Shown here: one piece after another, positions 49,915-58,994 of the stretch
Layout: each line of letters opens with the position of its first letter
Position numbering within the stretch: the stretch's first letter is position 1
Source of the DNA: Nannochloropsis oceanica
Taxonomy: Eukaryota > Sar > Eustigmatophyceae > Eustigmatales > Monodopsidaceae
Length of the DNA: 64,000 bases
Reading direction: 5' to 3'
Assembly (NCBI GenBank): GCA_004519485.1
Contig: CP038114.1
Coordinates: forward strand, 124,001 to 188,000
Made by a program: the position numbers and the translations under genes
The notes under the pieces: model-generated
Told to the model about the DNA's origin: nothing
What the model saw: only the letters and a program-made list of their open reading frames with translations
Database searches by the model: none

Positions 49915-52170
49915 TCAAGTGACAATTATCCGTGACATGTACATGTAAGCCAATACACTCCCAGTGATCACCGTCATCATGAAAACAATAAACGAAATCG
50001 TTCCCACGAAAAAAGGAAAGCTATCTTCACTCCCACTCCCCTCACTCACCCCATTATAAAGATTCATCCCGAAAATTCCCGATACAAGCGCACCAAATGC
50101 AAAACACAGGTTAACCAACGCGAACAACGTTCCGATCGTCAAAAGCTTGTTGCGGGCCATGTCCAACTTTACTGTCACATAGTTCTCAGTATTCTGCATA
50201 TCCTCCTTCACCAACTCCCACTTTATTATCAACTCATTAAAGTCCCCCAAAAAGCTTTCCAACAAAATCTCAGCTTCGTCGTTGTCCTCCGCTTCCAAAG
50301 GCAGCCATGTTGAGATGAGCTGCTGCTGTTCGTAGTTGCTATTGCTCTCCCCGTTTCCACTATCACCACCACAAGCAACACTGCTGTTTCTGCCTCCCAT
50401 CCTGCTCCCACCTCCTGCTCTCCCTTCACTGGCACCTAGCGCCATGCCAGCATCAGTGTTAACACTTTCCAGTCCCCCATTCTGCAGGAAAAAGTGCTGT
50501 TGCTGCTGTTGCTGGTGGTTCTGATTATTGGTGATAATACGGGTGAGGTGCAGCATTTGGAGGTGTTCCTCGTCGTCGAGAAGAGCAAAAATAGCCTTGT
50601 GGAGAGAGCGGACTTTAGCTTGGTGATTGGCGACTTGACTCTTTAGCTGCCGGAGAGTATCTTGAAGCTGGGTGTTTAGCGTTCCGTTTCCTAACAATGC
50701 CTTGCTATTCTTGATAATGTGCGGCCGTATATCCTTCAAGCGATTCCTAAAATGGTTATTAATCGTCATCAACACTGCTTCCAACGCCAAGAATTCAAAC
50801 TCCTCCTCCTCCTCCCCTCCCTCACCCATGTCGAACGCCCGCTGCTGCACTCTCAACCAACGCAAATTTCTCTCCAGCTCTCCGAAGCAATTCGATTCAG
50901 CGCCGTCCGGCACGACGACAATTATCCGATCCCACAAAATGAGACAACGTATGATATCTAAACTTAGCACGATCGTATGCCTACGCACGGCAATACTCAT
51001 CTCTTTACTCTTCACACTCTCCGTGTCCAACCCACTTACCAACCGCCTCACATCTCGGGCATTCAACAAACCACCCACCAGAGCGGGTGGTGCCTGCAAT
51101 GGCATGCGGGTTACTGGCCCTCCTCCTCCCATCATGATACTCTCATTATTACCGGTGCTCATTGTCCTAGAATGAAGCATCCCCTTTCGATTGAAAGAAT
51201 TGGCGGCATTACTCACGCTATCCTCCTTGCACTGACCACCGGTGGAAAAAGGAGGTACATACGCGTTTTGGCTTAAATTTATCGAAAATTGTTGTTGCTG
51301 GCTTACATGCACTGCACGGACGGCGTTCTGGATGTAACGGAGTAAATCCTTTAAGGCCAATTCCATTTCCATCGTCTGCCCTTGCTTCGGCAGCGTCAAA
51401 GTACGGACATGCTGCTGTTTGGCTGTCAATACCTTACGGCCCGCCTTAGGACAAGTAGGTAAAGCTTTACTACGGGAGAGAGTCGTGTTCCCGTTCTCTT
51501 GTGTTAATGTCGTCGTCGACGAGGTCGAATGCTGCCCCTCCTCCTTCACCCCGCTCGAAACCCGCTGCGTCTCACTCAAGGATCCCATCAGCAACGGCTG
51601 CCGGGTGCCCGCATTTCGTCCATCGCCCTCCGCGGCAGCGTACGCCTCAGCCGCTTCGACCTCGGCTGCACGATTGTCTGCAGCCACGGCATGTGCTAGC
51701 AGCTCCAACCCTTCTTCCTCTTCATCGCTGATCAAAGCGGGGATCAAATTATGGACGCTACGTGCCTGGACATAGTCAGGTAGCCGAAAAGGACTCTTTT
51801 TACCTCCTGCGCTTGTCCCGTCCCCATTCCCGTCAATATCCAGCACCATGGATGAGGAGAGATCCCCACCATTATTCTTCTCCTCCAGGCCCTCCTCATC
51901 CTCTCCCTCGTCATCGTCGAGCTCAGGAATGGCCATATTACGACCATATTTGTCGTCTCGGCTGCGGTGGCGCCGCGCTTGGGATGCAACCCCCAAGGCC
52001 TTGCGTAGTGGCCGCCACAAAGATGCGATACCCTCTTTGCGTCCTCCTCCTATGTTCTCGTCAGAACAGGCACCCACGTCGCTTGGGGGCGAGTCAGCGC
52101 CGGCTTCAATGGTAATGGGCAAGCCAATGACGTCATCGCCAGAGGCATTGACCTGATGTTGGTGGGCCAT
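49915..52170 (-). CDS. MRS2: MRS2/CorA-type magnesium channel (751 aa)
   Basis: Single exon. The diagnostic GMN selectivity motif sits in SGIFGMNLYNG (about residue 700), at the end of the first of two C-terminal transmembrane helices (LFALVNLCFAFGALV and TISFIVFMMTVITGSVLAY). Upstream are the Mrs2 core pieces: ARDVRRLVSGL, AVRRHTIVLSLDIIRCLI, EFEFLALEAVLM, LLDDEEHLQML, and EILLESFLGDFNELI followed by NTENYVTVKLDMARN. The family forms pentameric Mg2+ channels in mitochondria, plastids or vacuoles. At 751 residues it is nearly twice the usual length because of a long Ser/Asp/Gly-rich N-terminal region and Gln/Asn-rich insertions. No clear import signal is seen. The ATG at 52170 lies 63 nt after a good AG acceptor (52234), so a 5' UTR intron is likely. 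Confidence 0.88.
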   Translation of the reverse strand: MAHQHQVNASGDDVIGLPITIEAGADSPPSDVGACSDENIGGGRKEGIASLWRPLRKALGVASQARRHRSRDDKYGRNMAIPELDDDEGEDEEGLEEKNNGGDLSSSMVLDIDGNGDGTSAGGKKSPFRLPDYVQARSVHNLIPALISDEEEEGLELLAHAVAADNRAAEVEAAEAYAAAEGDGRNAGTRQPLLMGSLSETQRVSSGVKEEGQHSTSSTTTLTQENGNTTLSRSKALPTCPKAGRKVLTAKQQHVRTLTLPKQGQTMEMELALKDLLRYIQNAVRAVHVSQQQQFSINLSQNAYVPPFSTGGQCKEDSVSNAANSFNRKGMLHSRTMSTGNNESIMMGGGGPVTRMPLQAPPALVGGLLNARDVRRLVSGLDTESVKSKEMSIAVRRHTIVLSLDIIRCLILWDRIIVVVPDGAESNCFGELERNLRWLRVQQRAFDMGEGGEEEEEFEFLALEAVLMTINNHFRNRLKDIRPHIIKNSKALLGNGTLNTQLQDTLRQLKSQVANHQAKVRSLHKAIFALLDDEEHLQMLHLTRIITNNQNHQQQQQQHFFLQNGGLESVNTDAGMALGASEGRAGGGSRMGGRNSSVACGGDSGNGESNSNYEQQQLISTWLPLEAEDNDEAEILLESFLGDFNELIIKWELVKEDMQNTENYVTVKLDMARNKLLTIGTLFALVNLCFAFGALVSGIFGMNLYNGVSEGSGSEDSFPFFVGTISFIVFMMTVITGSVLAYMYMSRIIVT

Positions 52171-53050
52171 GGTGTAACGGCAGCAAGGGTTCGAAGCGGC
52201 AGCGGCGGTGTGGTTGATTGCGGCAGCAGGTGCCTGTTAGAGGAAATGAATCAAAATAAACAATAACGCAGACTTGGTTATTAGTCAGGGCAGAAATGTG
52301 GAGACAAAAGGAAAGGACGTGCATGCTGCTTTGGGTGTGAGATTCACTTTGCGACGTCGTTATTGAACCGTTACGAAACTGCCTCGTAACCCCTCCTTTA
52401 TGCGATCCCGGCATTGCCCACGAGCATCCATTTGTCGTCGTGCAGTCTTCCAAGGCCCACCAAAACCCCACCACGGACTGAGGCTCCGTGTACAAAAAGG
52501 TGCCGTCTTGGTGCGCCCCCACCTTCCTCCCTATCCTCGGCTGCTTGAAAATATACATGCTTTGGGCGACCAAGGGGACGCTCAGGCCCCCCACAGCTCG
52601 AGCCAACTTGCCGATTTGAGGAGTGTAGGTTACTTGCTGGAAAATTGGGTCAAGATCATGCAATGCATGTCCAATTTTATTGATGCTGGCGGCCCGGGGT
52701 TGTCGGAATGCACCCGTCTCCTTGTCAAAGGCATCTGCCTCCCAGAAGAAACGAATCTTGTCGCCACTCCCGAGGAAGTAATCGTCGGAAATGCGGCTTT
52801 AATCGTCCGTGGAGAAGACGGAGCGGTGTGCGGCCAGGTCAAACCCTTGAATCAAGGCGTTCATTCGGCCACGGAGTGCTGCGCACTTTGCCCGGGACCA
52901 GTATCCTTCCAAGACGAGGTATCCCTCCGTCTCGAAGCGCGTGCGATAGTCCTCCCACACCTCGGGGTCATCCATGAGTTGGAGCTCCTTGTTGCCATTG
53001 TCAAGCGCAAGTGTTGGTTGTGCGATGGCGTTAGTGCTGGTGGTCGTCAT
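52133..53050 (-). pseudogene. Phytanoyl-CoA dioxygenase-like gene, interrupted and 3'-truncated
   Basis: The frame from the ATG at 53050 to 52133 encodes the N-terminal and central part of a PhyH family Fe(II)/2-oxoglutarate dioxygenase: YRTRFETEGYLVLEGYWS, SDDYFLGSGDKIRFFWE, SINKIGHALHDLDPIF, AQSMYIFKQP, VGAHQDGTFLYTEP (iron-binding H and D), GCSWAMPGSHKGG. One in-frame TAA at 52801-52799 interrupts it in the loop after VFSTDD. From memory of plant homologues the loop keeps its length and has Gln at this place, which a CAA-to-TAA change would explain. After VTRQFRN the family's last 70 or so residues, with the distal iron-binding His and the Arg that holds 2-oxoglutarate, are missing. The frame runs through a probable 142-nt intron into the start of the magnesium channel gene. 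It is probably a decayed host gene; sequencing error at the TAA remains possible, but would not explain the missing tail. Confidence 0.68.
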
Positions 53051-54144
53051 GGCTAAATGGCTCTGGTGTTATGGGTTGGGACACGGAGTGGGGAGGTCAG
53101 ACGCTTTGTCATTTGTACTTCCTGGCGGCAGCTTGGCGGCCTGCCTGCCTGCCCATCAGGTGTACGTGGGGATTGTATGGCAGGTTAAACATCGTTTTAT
53201 TGCCTTGCACCGAATCTTGCTGCACAGTCGATCAGGCTGATTTGAGCAGGCGCCGCAAGTGCCTTCAATCATCATCAAAACGCCAGCAAGCAGCCAGTGC
53301 CCCTCACATTATGCTCACCCCTCTCAATATTCACATTCCCCCAGCAGGTATGTCTAGTCCTTTGTATAGCGGCTCTCCGGGTCGCCAAAGCCACCGTGAT
53401 CGGGACAGAGGCCACCGATATACATATCTTTCTCTTTTTATTCGTCCTGTTCTTTTCCTCCTATCTTTCTCTTGGTCGAATCTTCTTCTCCTTCTTCTAT
53501 ATTGCATTGTCATTCTCCCTTCCTCTTCCTTCTTTGTCGCCCACCAAAATTGATGTAAATGTGAACGCGGAAACCCTCCCTGGCAGTCAACGGCTCAGAC
53601 TTGTCAGGGAAAAATCAAGATAGAAAAAATATGAGGCGACGACCACCTGGGAAGAAATTACTTGGGAACGCCAAATGCACAACACGGAGGAAAAAGACAC
53701 ACCAAGTCACGTAGTGAAATATGTAGACCTGATTCTTCTTTATCTTTTGAGCGACAGGTCAAGTGGCGGGGTGGTGCTTGGGAAAAACACAAAGGTGAAA
53801 ATCGTAAATATTTTGGTATGTGCCCGTTGCAGGGCACATACCTTGTGTTGGAAATATACCAAAAGGTACACCTGGCAATTTATCATTGCCAGGTGATCAT
53901 TTTTGCATAATAGCAACGATAAAATTGGACGCAGAAGAGGGTATCTTGCTTTTCAGGCCGCACATTCTCATGATCCCTTGGGGAGAACGGAAAGGCCAGG
54001 CTCGAAGTTGTCGAATCTTTCGGTGATTCCAGCGCGTGCGTGCATCTGCTTTTCCGTTGGGTGGTATGTGCGCCCTCGGCAAGGCCGGCGCTACCCGAAA
54101 GTCCTAGAAAGGAAAGTCCCGTCGTCTTTAAAGTCAACAACCCA
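53051..54144. other. Accessory-type intergenic region upstream of the Fanzor remnant
   Basis: No convincing gene in 1.1 kb. Open frames of 60-160 codons exist on both strands without motifs. The part from 53811 to 53895 folds into two adjacent hairpins. If the nuclease gene was once complete, its N-terminal exons would be expected here, but I could not recognise RuvC-I. Confidence 0.45.
53811..53895. repeat. Two adjacent perfect hairpins within a larger inverted repeat
   Basis: Hairpin 1: GGTATGTGCCC at 53815-53825 pairs with GGGCACATACC at 53832-53842 around a 6-nt loop. Hairpin 2: CACCTGGCAAT at 53869-53879 pairs with ATTGCCAGGTG at 53885-53895 around a 5-nt loop. In addition TTTTGGTAT (53811-53819) is complementary to ATACCAAAA (53856-53864), so the first stem has an alternative partner. 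Could be a structured RNA or transposon-end relic. Confidence 0.8.
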
Positions 54145-54228
54145 CGTATGCGGTCTTGGATGGAAGCCAGGCAGAAACAAAGCATGTATATACGGCCGTG
54201 GATGAAAGCCAAGCAGAAACAAAGCATG
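54145..54228 (+). repeat. 42-bp tandem duplication, two copies
   Basis: Units 54145-54186 and 54187-54228 encode, on the plus strand, two 14-residue repeats of the form R-x-R-S/P-W-M-x-A-x-QKQSM. The second unit ends at ATG/GTATGA, a possible splice donor. It may be part of an exon of the neighbouring nuclease remnant. Confidence 0.75.
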
Positions 54229-54524
54229 GTATGAAATCTGGCCTGTGCGTCAGATAATGTAAGCACATCCCGCCCCAAATCCGAACGAGTCGCCGAGCTC
54301 GCCCCAAGGAAAGTGCATTCGTTGACTCTTCCTCTCTTCTTCTACAAAAAAATAGTTTGACAAGCTTTTTGTGACATTCTGGGACGAGGCATGCGTACTT
54401 GGGCATTGGCTTCAGGCTAGTCCAGGCCAGTTGTTACATGTTGGACAACAGCTGCTACACTACCATGATGGTAGATTACCAGGTGCAGTAGAATGTTTTC
54501 CCCTCCTCCCAAGAACCAAGGCAA

Positions 54525-54797
54525 GCGTGCGTGGCACGCGGCTGTTTTGTTTACTGCCGCCGCACCCACCTATCCCCCCCCCCCCTCCCTTCCCTCCTTC
54601 CTACCCACCCGCGCCACACACCACACACCCACAGCTGATTCCCCCGCGCGTCAGCCTGGAGTGAACAACAGTATCGTGGCCACACCAAAGGGACAGGAGG
54701 GCGCCGAGGCAGGCGTGCGTGGCACGCGGCTGTTTTGTTTACTGCCGCCGCACCCACCTATCCCCCCCCCCTTCCCTTCCCTCCTTCCTACCCACCC
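54525..54797. repeat. 188-bp-spaced direct duplication (about 85 bp per copy)
   Basis: The block starting GCGTGCGTGGCACGCGGCTG at 54525 and running through a C-tract to about 54609 recurs at 54713-54797 with few changes. Both copies contain a C-run of about 10-13. They lie in the presumed intron of the Fanzor remnant. Confidence 0.88.
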
Positions 54798-54984
54798 ATT
54801 CACCGCGACTGCAACTTACATTTTGCCATTGTGCCAAGGACAATACCACACCCTCCATTAGCGCCGTCAAACTTCCTCTCTATTTCCCCCCCTCCCCGCC
54901 CCCCCCCCCCCTCCTCAAATCACAGACAAAGGTACACCTCGATTGTGGGCAGCGTCTAAACCCAATTGCGAGAAGGGCAGAAGG

Positions 54985-55265
54985 AGAAGGAGGTGAAGGA
55001 GGAGAAGGAGGAGAAGGAGGAAGAGGAAGAGGAGGAGGAGGTGGTGGAGGAGGGGGGGAAGGTGGAGGAGGAGGAGAAGGGGGAGGAGGAGGAGGAGGAG
55101 GAAGGGAAAGGCAGAAGGAGAAGGAGGTGAAGGAGGAGAAGGAGGAGGAGGAGGGGGCGGAGGCGGTGGAAGCAGAGGAGGAGGAGGAGGCGGAGGCGGA
55201 GGAGGCGGAGGCGGAGGAGACGGAGGAGGAGGCGGAGGAGGACGAGGACGAGGCAGAGGAGGAGG
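54985..55265 (+). repeat. Purine-only GGA/GAG low-complexity tract
   Basis: Nearly 280 bp of G and A with GGA, GAG and GAA units. Read in one frame it gives poly-Gly/Glu, in another poly-Arg, so it opens long artificial frames on both strands. It separates the two presumed zinc-knuckle halves of the Fanzor remnant. Confidence 0.9.
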
Positions 55266-55387
55266 TCATGAGCGGGCCATCCGAGGACTTTGTTGGTGTG
55301 ACACCTGTGAACAGTTCGTGTCCCGGGACGGCAATGGGGCACGCAACATCCTGCGGGTGTACAGGAGCATGGTCCGTGGGTAAGCTC

Positions 55388-55982
55388 GTCCCCATGATCT
55401 TCGGTTTGGTCAACCGCGGCAAGATATGCGGACACTCTATGTGCAGCCTTCCCGCTGACCTCCTCTTTTATCCTCCTTCCCCCCCTCCTCCTGGCCCTGT
55501 GTGGGCCGTCCGGGGACTTTGCCTGATCAAAAAACCTGTCAAAGTCGCTAGAAAAACTCGGACAAGGAAATAAGGGATGAATACGCAACAATTTCTTGTT
55601 GGAAGGCTCCCCCTCGTATGCAAGTCCTACTGGGACGTCAGGTTGCATGCGATAGTTCTACAGGAGTGTAGGAGCGGCAGAAAAAAAGAACTTGAAGACC
55701 TTCATTCTTTCTCTTTCTTTGGACATGCTTACGGCAATGGTCAATTCCTTTTGTAGATCTATACTGACTCTCTTCCCTTTCTTTCACACCGTATGAACTG
55801 TTTGATAATTTCGTCTATGCTTCTGGAGGTGGCCGAAGAGGCCTCTCCTTGTCCTGATGTTCTTCTTGGCATCAGGCTCTCTATACTCAGCTCTCTATGA
55901 TTTTGTTTCTTTCTTTCCAACAAACCCTCTTACCTTTTCTTTCGTTTTTTAACATCCCTACCTTATCCTACCTCACCTCATA
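55388..55982. other. Region after the Fanzor tail, with a diverged copy of its knuckle sequence
   Basis: At about 55500-55522 the sequence matches the RAIRGLC coding stretch of the tail (20 of about 23 bases), then diverges (encoding AVRGLC, then LIKKPVK). The rest, to the 3' end of the PYROXD2-like gene, shows no gene. If the element was active, its guide RNA would be expected near here by analogy with other Fanzors. Confidence 0.45.
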
Positions 55983-58434
55983 TTATCGCTGTAAGTCACT
56001 TAAAACCACACGCGCACAGTTCCTACCAGGAGCACCCATCACCCCTCCCCCGGGATGCGTGCCTGCCCCACACAAATATAGACCAGGCAGCGGAGTGCGG
56101 TATCCCGGCCGCGCGTACGCCAATTGATGCAAGCCCAAGCTACCATGAAATATATTCCCTCCACGTAATCCAAACACTCTTTCCAGATCTAAAGGTGACA
56201 ATAGATCTCTCCCCAAAATCGACGAGGAAAAGTGTGGAGCCCTCTCGTCGATAATTCTAAATACACGATCAGCGAATGCATTCTTGAATCCCTCATCCTC
56301 CCAGCTTCCCACTTTCGGATCGAGGTCATAGGGCGCATACTGGACGAACAACGATGCGACATGCTTGCCCGGTGGAGCTAATGTGGTGTCCAAGGAGGAA
56401 GGTAGCGTCATCTCAATCACTGGTCGAGAGCTAGGACGACGGTGGGCATGAGCCTCCAAATAAGCATCTTCTATCTCTTGAACTCTTTCTTCAAAGTGGA
56501 TAGTGCCCCGATGCTGGGGACCTGCCTCGTTCGAAGCAGAGGAGGGGCAGCAGATGAAGTCAGGAAGGCGCTCCAATGCCAAATTAATTTTGAAGACCCC
56601 GGAGGCGTAGTCAGTGTGGCGAATGCGCTGGAGGAAAGCCGGGGGCAGAGGCGAGGAGGAGGAGGGAGGGAGGGAGGAGGGGGGGAAGAGCTCGACAAAT
56701 GTGTGGTAAGGGGTGCCGCTTGAGAGGGTGACAGAGGCTTCTAGTCTGTGTATGAGAGGGAGGAGAAAGGGTTGATAAACATATGTCATCGCTATGGCGA
56801 GGGGGAAGACTGCCATTGTGAATGTGACCATACACATATGCCACTCTCCCTCTCCTCTCCCTTGGTCCCTTGGTCCCTTGGTCCCTTGCTTACCGTGTCC
56901 CACACGCCATCTCCACGCCCGTCACTCGCCCCAACCCTTCACTATACACAAACTGTTGCACCTGCGCGCTGGTCACTATCTCTGCCCCCCACGCCTTGGC
57001 TGCCTTGGCGATGCTGTGACTAACGGCACCCATCCCTCCTTCAACATAAGCCCACACGCCCTTCCGTCCCGCTGCCTCTCCTGTGTCAATAGTGAACAAA
57101 GAATTAGGGAAAAGCGAAGTACAAGAGCATTATGAAGGATGTAAAACATAAAAATAAACACATACAACAAATAAGAAATGAAATGAATGAAACACGAATT
57201 AGGGTAAGTGAGAATAATTTCCAAATTAATAGCAGGGTATTTTCGAGTCTTGTATGCGCCCTTCCCTCCCGCCCTTCCTCCCTCCCTCTTCACCCATGAC
57301 ATGGTGCAACAGCACATATGCGGATCCTGGCGATTTGGGCCCCACCATCGCACCGATAACCGCATCTGTCGCGAGCGTCGCCTTAACCACCTCGCTCTCA
57401 AACCATCGGTCCAACAAATTGGTTGCCGGGGCCGTGAAAAGCTCATAAAAAGAGACGAGCCTTCCGCGACTCTTCCATCCTAGCCTCAGTAACTTTCCGA
57501 GGGTGGCGAAGGTATGTTTCCTTTCGCTCCACTTAGCTTGCCCATCCCATGGGTTAGGAGGAGAGGAATCGAGCAACGGCTCGATTAACTCACGTGCTTG
57601 GCCCAGAAATCTTTCGTACTCGATGAAGGCATCAGCGTCTCGCAGAGAAAATTGAGCGATGGATTGCCAGTTCTTCTCCTGCATGGGAGGAGGCGAGGGG
57701 GAGGGATAGGGAGAAAGGTAAGGAGCAGCATTTAGAGGAGGAATAATTACTACGACCGGGACAGTGAGAAGTAAGTAGATTGGCATGGGCAAAATTACGA
57801 CTTAACAATTAACCCTTCCGTCCCTTTTGCCCACTCTCCCTCCACGCCCTACCTCATTACTCCCCAACATCAAATACTTTCCAACTTCACCTGTAGGAGT
57901 GAACGAGGAAGGGTCCCTTGGTAGGTATTTAAAGCCATGTTTCTCAAGCGCTAGATCAGTAATAATCTGAGGGCGGAGCAACCCAGCCAGGTACGAAGCT
58001 CTGCTGAATTTGAATCCATTGACCAGCTCCTCTGTGACTGCTGCCCCGCCCACCACATGACGACGTTCCAGGACAAGGACATCAAGACCTTGTTTTGCGA
58101 GGTAGGCAGCGGCGACTAGACCGTTGTGGCCCCCACCGACGACGATGGCGTCGCGTTTGATGCGGGTAGGAGCGATGAAGTGGTAGGGGGAAGCAAGGTA
58201 CTTGCGGCTGAGAGGAAGCGGGGAGGAAGAGGAAGATGAGGATGAGGGCGAGGAGGAGGAGGAGGAGGAGGAGGAGGAGGAGGAGGAGGAGGAGGAGGAG
58301 GAGGAGGAGGCGAAGCTAACGCAGCAGCCGCATCTTGTGGTCGAGAGCACAGAGGGTGTTGAGAGGATGCGAGAGCGGCGGATGAAATGGGTCGTCGCAG
58401 TGATTGCTGTTTCTGCTCCTGCCGACCATGGCAT
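55983..58434 (-). CDS. PYROXD2: PYROXD2-like FAD oxidoreductase, phytoene-desaturase superfamily (638 aa)
   Basis: Exons 58434-57853, 57678-57294, 57080-56894 and 56745-55983; introns of 174, 213 and 148 nt. All three junctions rebuild conserved sequence: LMLGSNE/EKNWQSIAQF, HHVMG/EAAGRKGVWAYVEGG and EMACGTR/LEASVTLSSGTPYHTF. The Rossmann motif VVGGGHNGLVAAAYLAKQG lies at about residue 97; GFKFSRASYLAGLLRP and the C-terminal GLYLCGAGTHPGGGV (FAD-binding) are typical. Human PYROXD2 is a mitochondrial matrix protein of uncertain reaction. The first 95 residues form a probable presequence (MPWSAGAETAITATTHFIRR) followed by a Ser run coded by a GGA microsatellite at 58250-58310. An open frame continues upstream to 58812, but the ATG at 58434 gives the better presequence. 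It is divergent from uS19. Confidence 0.88.
56858..56889. repeat. 8-bp tandem repeat at an intron 5' end
   Basis: Four copies of TCCCTTGG (last one TCCCTTGC) on the plus strand. On the coding (minus) strand they lie directly downstream of the GTAAGC donor of the third PYROXD2-like intron; the last unit overlaps the donor. Confidence 0.85.
58250..58310. repeat. (GGA)n microsatellite, about 20 units
   Basis: An almost perfect GGA/GAG array on the plus strand encodes a run of Ser (TCC) in the leader of the PYROXD2-like protein. Its length is probably variable between strains. Confidence 0.9.
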
Positions 58435-58994
58435 GGTGTGCTGTTGGGTGGATTGGATGAATGTAATGAAAAAAGGAAGCCGCCATGATTTCGATGCAGT
58501 GCGTGAGGCAGGGCAATCAAAAGCTGGCCATCGCGGGGTTCGCGTCCGGTCATAATCTGCCCAACCACAGCCACCCCTCGCCGCCTCTCGTCCATCGCTC
58601 CCCTGGTCATCCCTCTCTTCCTCCTGCTGATCCACGCTACGCGTAGCACTCACCTCTAGGGCCTCAATGCCTTGCAAGGCTAAACTGATGTGCGTACTGG
58701 GAGATCCTGTGATGCCTGGAAGGGCACGTCCTACTCCATTCTCTCGCTGTGTGGTGAGGAGGGGATCAAGAAAGAAGAATGGGGGGGGCTGCCGCTCGAG
58801 CATCACCCTCATGCCCTACACACAGCAAAGGCACATTTACCTCTGCATACACAGCTCTTAAAAGGCATAGGGGAAAGGGCATGCGAGGGCGTGGCCGCTG
58901 TGGCGTTGCCTCAATCCACTCTGCTGCCTCCCTCCTCTTCCTTGTCATCATGGTACTCATGACCTCTCTACCCCAAACCCACCCAACAGGAACC
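58435..58994. other. Divergent promoter region, PYROXD2-like/uS19
   Basis: 560 bp between the chosen starts. A pyrimidine-rich stretch and CAACAG end five bases before the uS19 ATG, so a 5' UTR intron in the ribosomal protein gene is possible. Confidence 0.5.

Follow-up and report, generated by a model that had tools for sequence, protein, structure and literature searches.

A decayed Fanzor1 transposon copy with an internal deletion in Nannochloropsis oceanica, from a family whose spread was most likely Helitron2-like

A 64,000-nucleotide stretch of the Nannochloropsis oceanica genome (contig CP038114.1, positions 124,001 to 188,000 of the forward strand; hereafter the window) contains what we read, with a probability of roughly 0.6, as the decayed copy, marked by an internal deletion, of a transposon with Fanzor1 that was most likely spread in a Helitron2-like manner. 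Fanzor1 is a eukaryotic RNA-guided DNA-cutting protein, the Fanzors being eukaryotic relatives of TnpB and Cas12, and it occurs in many kinds of transposon. In the mechanism that we propose, (i) source elements would encode an RNA-guided DNA nuclease; (ii) copying would be anchored at the 3' end, by one-ended rolling-circle replication of the Helitron2-like kind, driven in trans; (iii) the 3' region together with flanking DNA would serve as guide RNA; and (iv) CCTA would be insertion target and TAM alike.

A Fanzor1 tail, its paralogues and its homologues

An earlier note on this DNA had proposed, at 55262-55387 on the plus strand, the zinc knuckle and RuvC-III tail of a Fanzor nuclease. On re-reading the sequence, the peptide comprises 38 residues (HERAIRGLCWCDTCEQFVSRDGNGARNILRVYRSMVRG) encoded at 55267-55380 and followed by TAA; its Cys codons are 55297-55299 and 55306-55308, its RuvC-III-like Asp is codon 55327-55329, and the surrounding stop-to-stop frame (54997-55383, 128 aa) lies behind a purine tract. 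By itself, the peptide stays under the Pfam and PDB thresholds: a 47-aa piece of the tail matched PF07282 at E 0.06, the 128-aa frame had no match in Pfam, and in the PDB the peptide matched the Mimivirus TnpB-like protein L79 at E 0.73. Paralogues and homologues were therefore needed to decide its identity.

When the peptide was searched against its own genome (29.26 Mb, 32 contigs), all 91 places that were scored as candidates, the window among them, gave a match at E≤10, and 89 reached E≤0.001. Against the C-terminus of P0001, an intact 658-aa homologue, the tail showed 26 identities over 36 positions (72%), and a first zinc knuckle stands ~280 nt upstream of it, where 54926-54988 agrees with P0001 at 14 of 20 residues. 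The proposed Fanzor tail is thus borne out: the stretch encodes a second zinc knuckle of Fanzor1 type together with the RuvC-III Asp. Chance similarity within low-complexity DNA would fit the position of the peptide after a long purine tract, as well as its weak scores when searched alone; the tail itself, however, is not low-complexity, and the genomic matches, the identity to an intact Fanzor1, and the first knuckle in its place all speak against coincidence. Paralogues that contain RuvC have already refuted this explanation, to which we give practically no credence.

The paralogue in question, a RuvC-containing copy that also carries the peptide, had been named as the thing to look for, and was found on contig C4 (L029, C4:1090015-1091169). 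This copy lacks the N-terminus and has one stop-free frame from before RuvC-I to the C-terminus, which runs through VAIDPGRVNLVTALD (RuvC-I), TTKVHLDCGQRLNPIAR (first knuckle), a 62-codon Gly-rich linker, IRGLYWCNTCEQFVSRDGNGARNIL (second knuckle and RuvC-III), and GEARPHDLRFGQPRQDMRTLYV, and then stops. The RuvC core survives in a few other genomic copies as well: a search with the 267-aa core of the C4 copy gave 41 matches from 44 candidates, and among the best five of these, four were 98-100% identical and stop-free, and the fifth was 91% identical with one stop.

Homology to solved Fanzor1 proteins supports the assignment of the element to Fanzor1 rather than to Fanzor2, TnpB, or Cas12. 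Residues 1-350 of the C27 frame (L062), used as a protein query, returned 45 proteins at E≤0.001, of which the best was P0001 (ending TTKVHHACGHRLNPIASRMAGPPVRAIRGLCWCNTCTKFVSRDGNAAQNILRIFKTDVRGEPRPHELRFGQRRQ...); identities for P0001-P0003, with lengths of 658-710 aa, were 50, 48, and 48%. A profile, A1, made of 36 sequences (35 of the 45 homologues and L062) matched the PDB entries 9cf0 from P. parasitica (2e-18), 8gkh from S. punctatus (2.3e-14), and 9cer from G. theta (1.9e-7), and the next match after these three Fanzor1s, at 0.072, was unrelated noise. Searched alone, the 707-aa L062 frame found nothing in PDB at E≤0.01 and nothing in Pfam at E≤1, and its 350-aa piece found nothing in Pfam or NCBIfam. 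Among five homologues scanned, P0001, P0006, P0015, and P0020 passed the PF07282 cut-off, with P0003 just under it; the profile match anticipated in the earlier note is therefore present in relatives, but not in the window peptide itself, which remains under the cut-off.

The Fanzor1 motif has been given as D-X(125,275)-[TS][TS]XX-[C4 zinc finger]-X(5,50)-RD (PMC3627910). In the fuller paralogues, D168, TT at 328-329 (A1 numbering), TTKV, and RD follow one another in the order of the motif, and the first finger ligand is His (TTKVHLDC) rather than Cys. The same His is present in the intact P0001-P0003, and we accordingly rejected the idea that the His in TKVHLDC reflects decay. The window copy is without the RuvC-I Asp of the motif.

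Elsewhere in the genome, the loci L031-L035 (C1:1034208, C8:749907, C4:174104, C8:721866, and C11:980306) carry TnpB-like zinc ribbons, also decayed, that form a set distinct from the Fanzor1 family; they pass the PF07282 cut-off and are likely Fanzor2 or TnpB remnants; the closest PDB match of the L032 peptide was Mimivirus TnpB-like L79, at E 7.4e-8.

The window copy, its deletion and its coding history

The earlier note had also suggested a mobile element, which the data bear out; the tail lies in one copy of a dispersed repeat family (Table 1). Its homology to other copies starts at 53610 (L002, L006, and L057), 53653 (C9 and L017), or 53742 (L043) and stops at 55692-55693, the first of these positions being where the homology of the window copy stops and not a proven 5' terminus. 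The segment 53610-53652 is common to L002, L006, and L057. No clear duplication flanks the window copy. The repeat-rich island described between host genes does exist, with the refinement that it is largely the element itself (~53610-55693). The host genes on either side, at window positions 49915-53068 and 55983-58815 on the minus strand, include an MRS2-like magnesium transporter, a PhyH dioxygenase, and an FAD oxidoreductase, the last of which is related to phytoene dehydrogenase-like proteins.

Table 1. Features of the Fanzor1-bearing element copy, in window coordinates
Feature	Position	Strand	Remarks
Window copy of the Fanzor1-bearing element	~53610-55693	+	internally deleted, ~2.1 kb
5' untranslated-like segment	53610-54471	+	53653-54471 88% identical to C9
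Putative 5' intron, retained	54472-54925	+	GT...polypyrimidine...CACAG, starts GTAGATTACC; from sequence
First zinc knuckle, TKVHLDCGQRLNPIARRAEG	54926-54985	+	frame 2; 14/20 identical to P0001 residues 577-596
Purine microsatellite in place of the inter-knuckle linker	54975-55266	+	frame differs between the knuckles on either side
Second zinc knuckle with RuvC-III Asp	55267-55380	+	26/36 to P0001; 91 own-genome matches
C-terminal extension frame	55381-55449	+	closed by TAA 55381-55383; GEARPHDLRFGQPRQDMRTLYV or near in most sister copies
3' non-coding region, candidate guide RNA	55450-55693	+	hairpins, then GAACTA-type end (GAACTT here)
Hairpins	55517-55523/55542-55548; 55586-55590/55597-55601; 55615-55623/55643-55651	+	plus terminal hairpin before the end

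In the window copy, the first knuckle (ACAAAGGTACACC) follows directly after the putative intron; the copy has neither the start-codon exon nor the RuvC-I/II core. In C11 and C15, the start-codon exon is preceded by the same 3' part that ends the putative intron of the window. This intron also contains a 68-bp direct repeat (97%), at window 54516-54583 and 54704-54771. The deletion junction of the window was read exactly in L043 too, which lies on another contig, and six matches to the C4 core, window included, begin at the same residue 250, the junction itself having been read in two of the six. Because the window and L043 have the same junction, the deletion is older than at least one of the two insertions, and this site may at no time have held a complete nuclease gene. 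To judge by its sequence, the window copy is a deletion derivative whose move came later than the deletion, and it is predicted to make no working nuclease.

The 128-aa open frame could also be taken for a living gene encoding a short zinc-knuckle protein. However, the two knuckles lie in different frames, 305 nt apart, RuvC-I/II is absent, and the C-terminus is cut by a TAA codon that is open in the other 35 of the 36 copies read in frame. We regard a living short gene as very improbable.

Unusually, the knuckles are separated by a long, purine-rich, Gly-coding stretch in place of the 9 codons that lie between RLNPIAS and IRGL in P0001. Its length varies widely among copies, the distance from RLNPIAR to IRGL being 305 nt in the window, 186 nt in C4, 734 nt in C8 (a figure that includes a gap of 100 N), 1146 nt in C9, 1171 nt in C27, and 1237 nt in C11. 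Across the tract, C4 keeps its frame without a stop, C9 keeps it too but meets stops inside the tract, and in the assembled sequences of C27, C11, and C8 the two knuckles fall in different frames. Further, C9, C27, C8, and C15 contain a non-repetitive block, PTILSLPGEQAARALATI.RIRAALA or close to it, that is flanked by two Gly-rich stretches; this block is conserved among the longer inserts, interrupted in C8 by its gap, and absent from the window and C4. We infer that the zinc ribbon of the source element tolerates a Gly-rich loop, and the stretch would offer a natural test of insertion tolerance in that domain.

Selection was examined over the 38 codons of the tail plus the following 22, in 36 of 56 mapped copies, the rest having been dropped as partial or too divergent. 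Alleles found in at least two copies numbered 32 over 60 third positions versus 26 over 120 first and second positions (Fisher p=3.7e-5), whereas singleton alleles numbered 34 and 64, respectively (p=0.75), with all allele counts back-calculated from per-site rates and alleles treated as independent. Among the 26 closest copies, the shared alleles lean the same way and the singletons slightly toward third positions too, both as apparent trends. The third-position excess of shared alleles suggests that the source lineage was probably constrained as a protein, the part beyond the tract included; the individual copies probably decay largely freely.

Copies, their ends and how the family may spread

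A DNA search of the genome with 55256-55700 gave 199 first-look candidates, while the last 101 bases as query yielded 158 and a 145-base query from L029 yielded 161; 40 candidates were scored in each case. Twenty further places, which hold the 3' part alone, were also read (L068-L087). Copies were seen at a minimum of ~110 places, and there are perhaps 160-200 in all.

Copies agree at the 3' end and differ at the 5' end. The 3' end ...AAAGAACTA is present within one mismatch in 37 of the 46 copies with a recognisable tail, and sequences diverge after it; of the remaining tailed copies, eight are without such an end and one is poor. The terminus consists of a hairpin and then CTA; the hairpin, GTTC...GAAC, has 90.2% of cells paired and stands ~9-27 nt ahead of the final CTA. 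A 3'-terminal hairpin near a fixed 3' end is a feature of Helitron2, but it is not Helitron-specific. On the 5' side, eight short copies (L068-L075) have eight different starts within the last 320 bases, two of them 1 base apart, and the lengths of twelve young short copies (L076-L087) span 156-324 bp. Moreover, two different 5' regions occur on the same Fanzor1 3' part, one in L010, L014, L017, and C9, and the other in L002, L006, and L057; the true 5' end of the element was not found among the copies compared. When the inverse of the 3' end was scanned in L001-L030, an upstream match appeared in one of the 30 copies (L023), with a mismatch, and we do not claim terminal inverted repeats.

Some copies are arranged as inverted structures. 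L063:123-1897 (C11:734622-736396) is a ~1.8-kb palindrome, 98.8% identical to its own reverse complement, that is made of the putative intron and the N-terminal part of a Fanzor1 copy. Head-to-head and tail-to-tail pairs are formed by C27:183476 (-) and C27:186272 (+), and by C11:850204-850344 (+) and 850357-850497 (-), the latter two being 12 bp apart.

A first scan of 37 copies found four with upstream duplications of 9-13 nt that start at the terminal CTA. In those four loci, none of 36 swapped flanks matched as long, but swapped flanks reached up to 10 nt at other loci, so only a junction-limited test carries weight. In this test, 6 of 22 copies had an exact match of at least 8 nt, compared with none of the 462 swapped controls, which went no further than 7 nt. 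L004, L029, and L042 (13, 10, and 9 nt) were among the 22 because the first scan had singled them out; in the unselected set of 19, three copies had exact matches of 8, 12, or 15 nt (L077, L082, and L087). A duplication with one mismatch, recognised by eye in L084, would raise this to 4 of 19, the controls having been run with exact matches only, and the other 15 showed no duplication. The base before CTA is C in six of the seven duplication copies (L004, L029, L042, L077, L082, L084, and L087), and in L087 eight bases stand between the duplication and the start of homology. A 9-nt match in L008 was not counted, its 5' junction being unconfirmed. In L042, CCPKRYRRA... had been considered as a first knuckle and was dropped as host flank, because the 9-nt duplication ends just before the element.

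A Helitron2-like rolling-circle copying from the 3' end has been proposed for CRe-1/2/3 of Chlamydomonas reinhardtii, which carry Fanzor1 and belong to the non-autonomous Helitron2 class (Bao & Jurka 2013, PMC3627910). Copies that are truncated at the 5' end and carry duplications of variable length, a further Helitron2 feature, occur in the present family in a minority of copies; against this reading, the target here is YCTA and not the TTTT of CRe-1/2/3. Decayed Helitrons of RepHel type are present in the genome. A helicase fragment (L088, C17:662900-664500) had Helraiser as its best PDB match, at 7.8e-49 versus PIF1 at 1e-7; across the genome it matched 63 pieces, and 30 of these fall entirely inside the last 57 residues, which suggests a similar bias towards 3' ends. 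An autonomous partner with the 3' end of the family was not found, and the 3' regions of two Helitron helicase copies do not share the terminus of the Fanzor1 family, so that a common Helitron 3' end was not borne out in the two regions read. A genome search for Helitron_like_N gave 0 matches in a search that had no working control. According to the account of strain CCMP1779, simple repeats dominate the repeats of N. oceanica, and Helitrons are its most abundant transposable elements (PMC3499364).

The fixed 3' end, the variable 5' truncation, and the 8-15-nt duplications from CTA would also be expected of LINE-like target-primed reverse transcription, in which the CUA end of an RNA would pair at a TAG/G nick; slippage of small repeats close to the 3' end, as in L017 and L008, points the same way. 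Against this, (i) the whole genome yielded only two weak RVT_1 matches, both below the cut-off, of which, by eye, L067 lies in a gypsy-like fragment and L066 is without a recognisable RT; (ii) no RT frame was noticed in the copies read; (iii) there is no poly(A) at the 3' end; (iv) the putative 5' intron is at least partly kept in four of the five copies read at that place (the window, L043, C11, and C15); and (v) retrotransposons are reported as few, and none as intact, in the same account of CCMP1779 (PMC3499364). In the fifth copy, C9, the putative intron is gone together with the first part of the next exon, at a TGG microhomology. Its junction, ATGATG joined to GCGCCAGG, was rejected as a precise intron loss, since there is no AG at the acceptor and the microhomology fits a deletion. 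The genome-wide RVT_1 search thus disclosed no LINE partner, although an extinct or diverged LINE would escape it, and we consider a LINE-like origin unlikely.

A different proposal is that Fanzor drives its own copying, by a guided cut at CCTA plus guide and a repair whose copying starts at the 3' end, proceeds inward, and breaks off at random points. The insertion target (C)CTA sits exactly at the TAM position, 5' of the 3'-flank guide, and a like TnpB/Fanzor logic is seen in SpuFz1, which has CATA as TAM and the 3' flank of its omega RNA as guide (PMC10432273). However, the duplications begin at CTA itself, whereas SpuFz1 cuts ~16-20 nt from its TAM (PMC10432273), and a guide derived from the flank would match the old site and not a new one. 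We think it quite improbable, and retain Helitron2-like copying as the preferred reading.

Candidate guide RNA and comparison with known systems

The omega RNAs of Fanzors carry 3' flanking sequence as guide (PMC10432273), and the 3' region of the present family is a plausible, if weakly supported, candidate for such an RNA. In one copy, L008, this region folds better than shuffles (z -3.0). A hairpin test on 46 aligned copies of 49 (L005, L051, and L057 left out) gave 93.4% of cells paired in the named hairpins versus 93.1% in shuffles. Pairs with a change on both sides numbered 4, a count reached by 38 of 500 shuffles (shuffle mean 1.7), against 3-7 in slid versions; further pair types alone were prominent, numbering 25, which was reached by 1 of 500 shuffles, with 11-21 in slid versions. 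The RNAalifold covariation term was -0.59, and an Rfam search of the 3' region returned nothing over a gathering score. Little covariation signal would be expected if the decay of most copies is neutral. The results agree with a guide RNA but do not suffice to establish one, and a conserved fold is weakly supported.

A more ambitious synthesis, which we regard as a long shot, would hold that every dispersed 3' end, including those of the 130-325-bp core-less copies, is or was an omega-RNA gene with its own 3' flank as guide, so that one Fanzor1 would be served in trans by >100 guides. CCTA would then be both target and TAM, the ACTA end of the element would be spared for want of a C, and a working zinc ribbon would be split by the Gly-rich stretch as a loop that it tolerates at various lengths. 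With its many copies, sharp 3' end, readable target, and one copy that is open from RuvC-I to the C-terminus, this compact alga makes two questions testable: does the insertion target double as TAM, and do guides come from copies without protein?

Our search of the literature on Fanzor and on Nannochloropsis Helitrons gave no title about this Fanzor1 family. The table in PMC3627910 has NOc as its sole Fanzor1 entry for Nannochloropsis oceanica, and NOc may be the present family. Compared with the solved Fanzor1s (8gkh, 9cf0, and 9cer), the family is homologous over RuvC and the zinc ribbon, but has HxxC for the first CxxC and knuckles that are far apart. P0001-P0003 share the same zinc ribbon (TTKVH..C...RAIRGLCWCNTC.KFVSRDGNAA.NIL) and a similar C-terminus, but differ in a compact 9-residue linker, RLNPIAS-IRGL, without a microsatellite.

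Among described elements, the SPu-1 element of S. punctatus has 33-bp inverted repeats and TA duplications, and the two 5' regions on one 3' part are reminiscent of the MCi-2 subfamilies (PMC3627910). CRe-1/2/3 resemble the present family in (i) a Fanzor1 cargo in an algal host, with a hairpin near the 3' end; (ii) mostly intact 3' ends with frequent 5' truncation and internal deletions; and (iii) duplications of variable length, ~7-19 bp there and 8-15 nt here (PMC3627910). They differ in their target (TTTT there, YCTA here), in the share of loci with duplications (~70, 57, and 10% there, 3-4 of 19 unselected copies here), and in termini that are shared with a verified Helitron there but not with the two Helitron 3' regions here, whereas the Gly-rich stretch inside the zinc ribbon sets the present family apart from them (PMC3627910).
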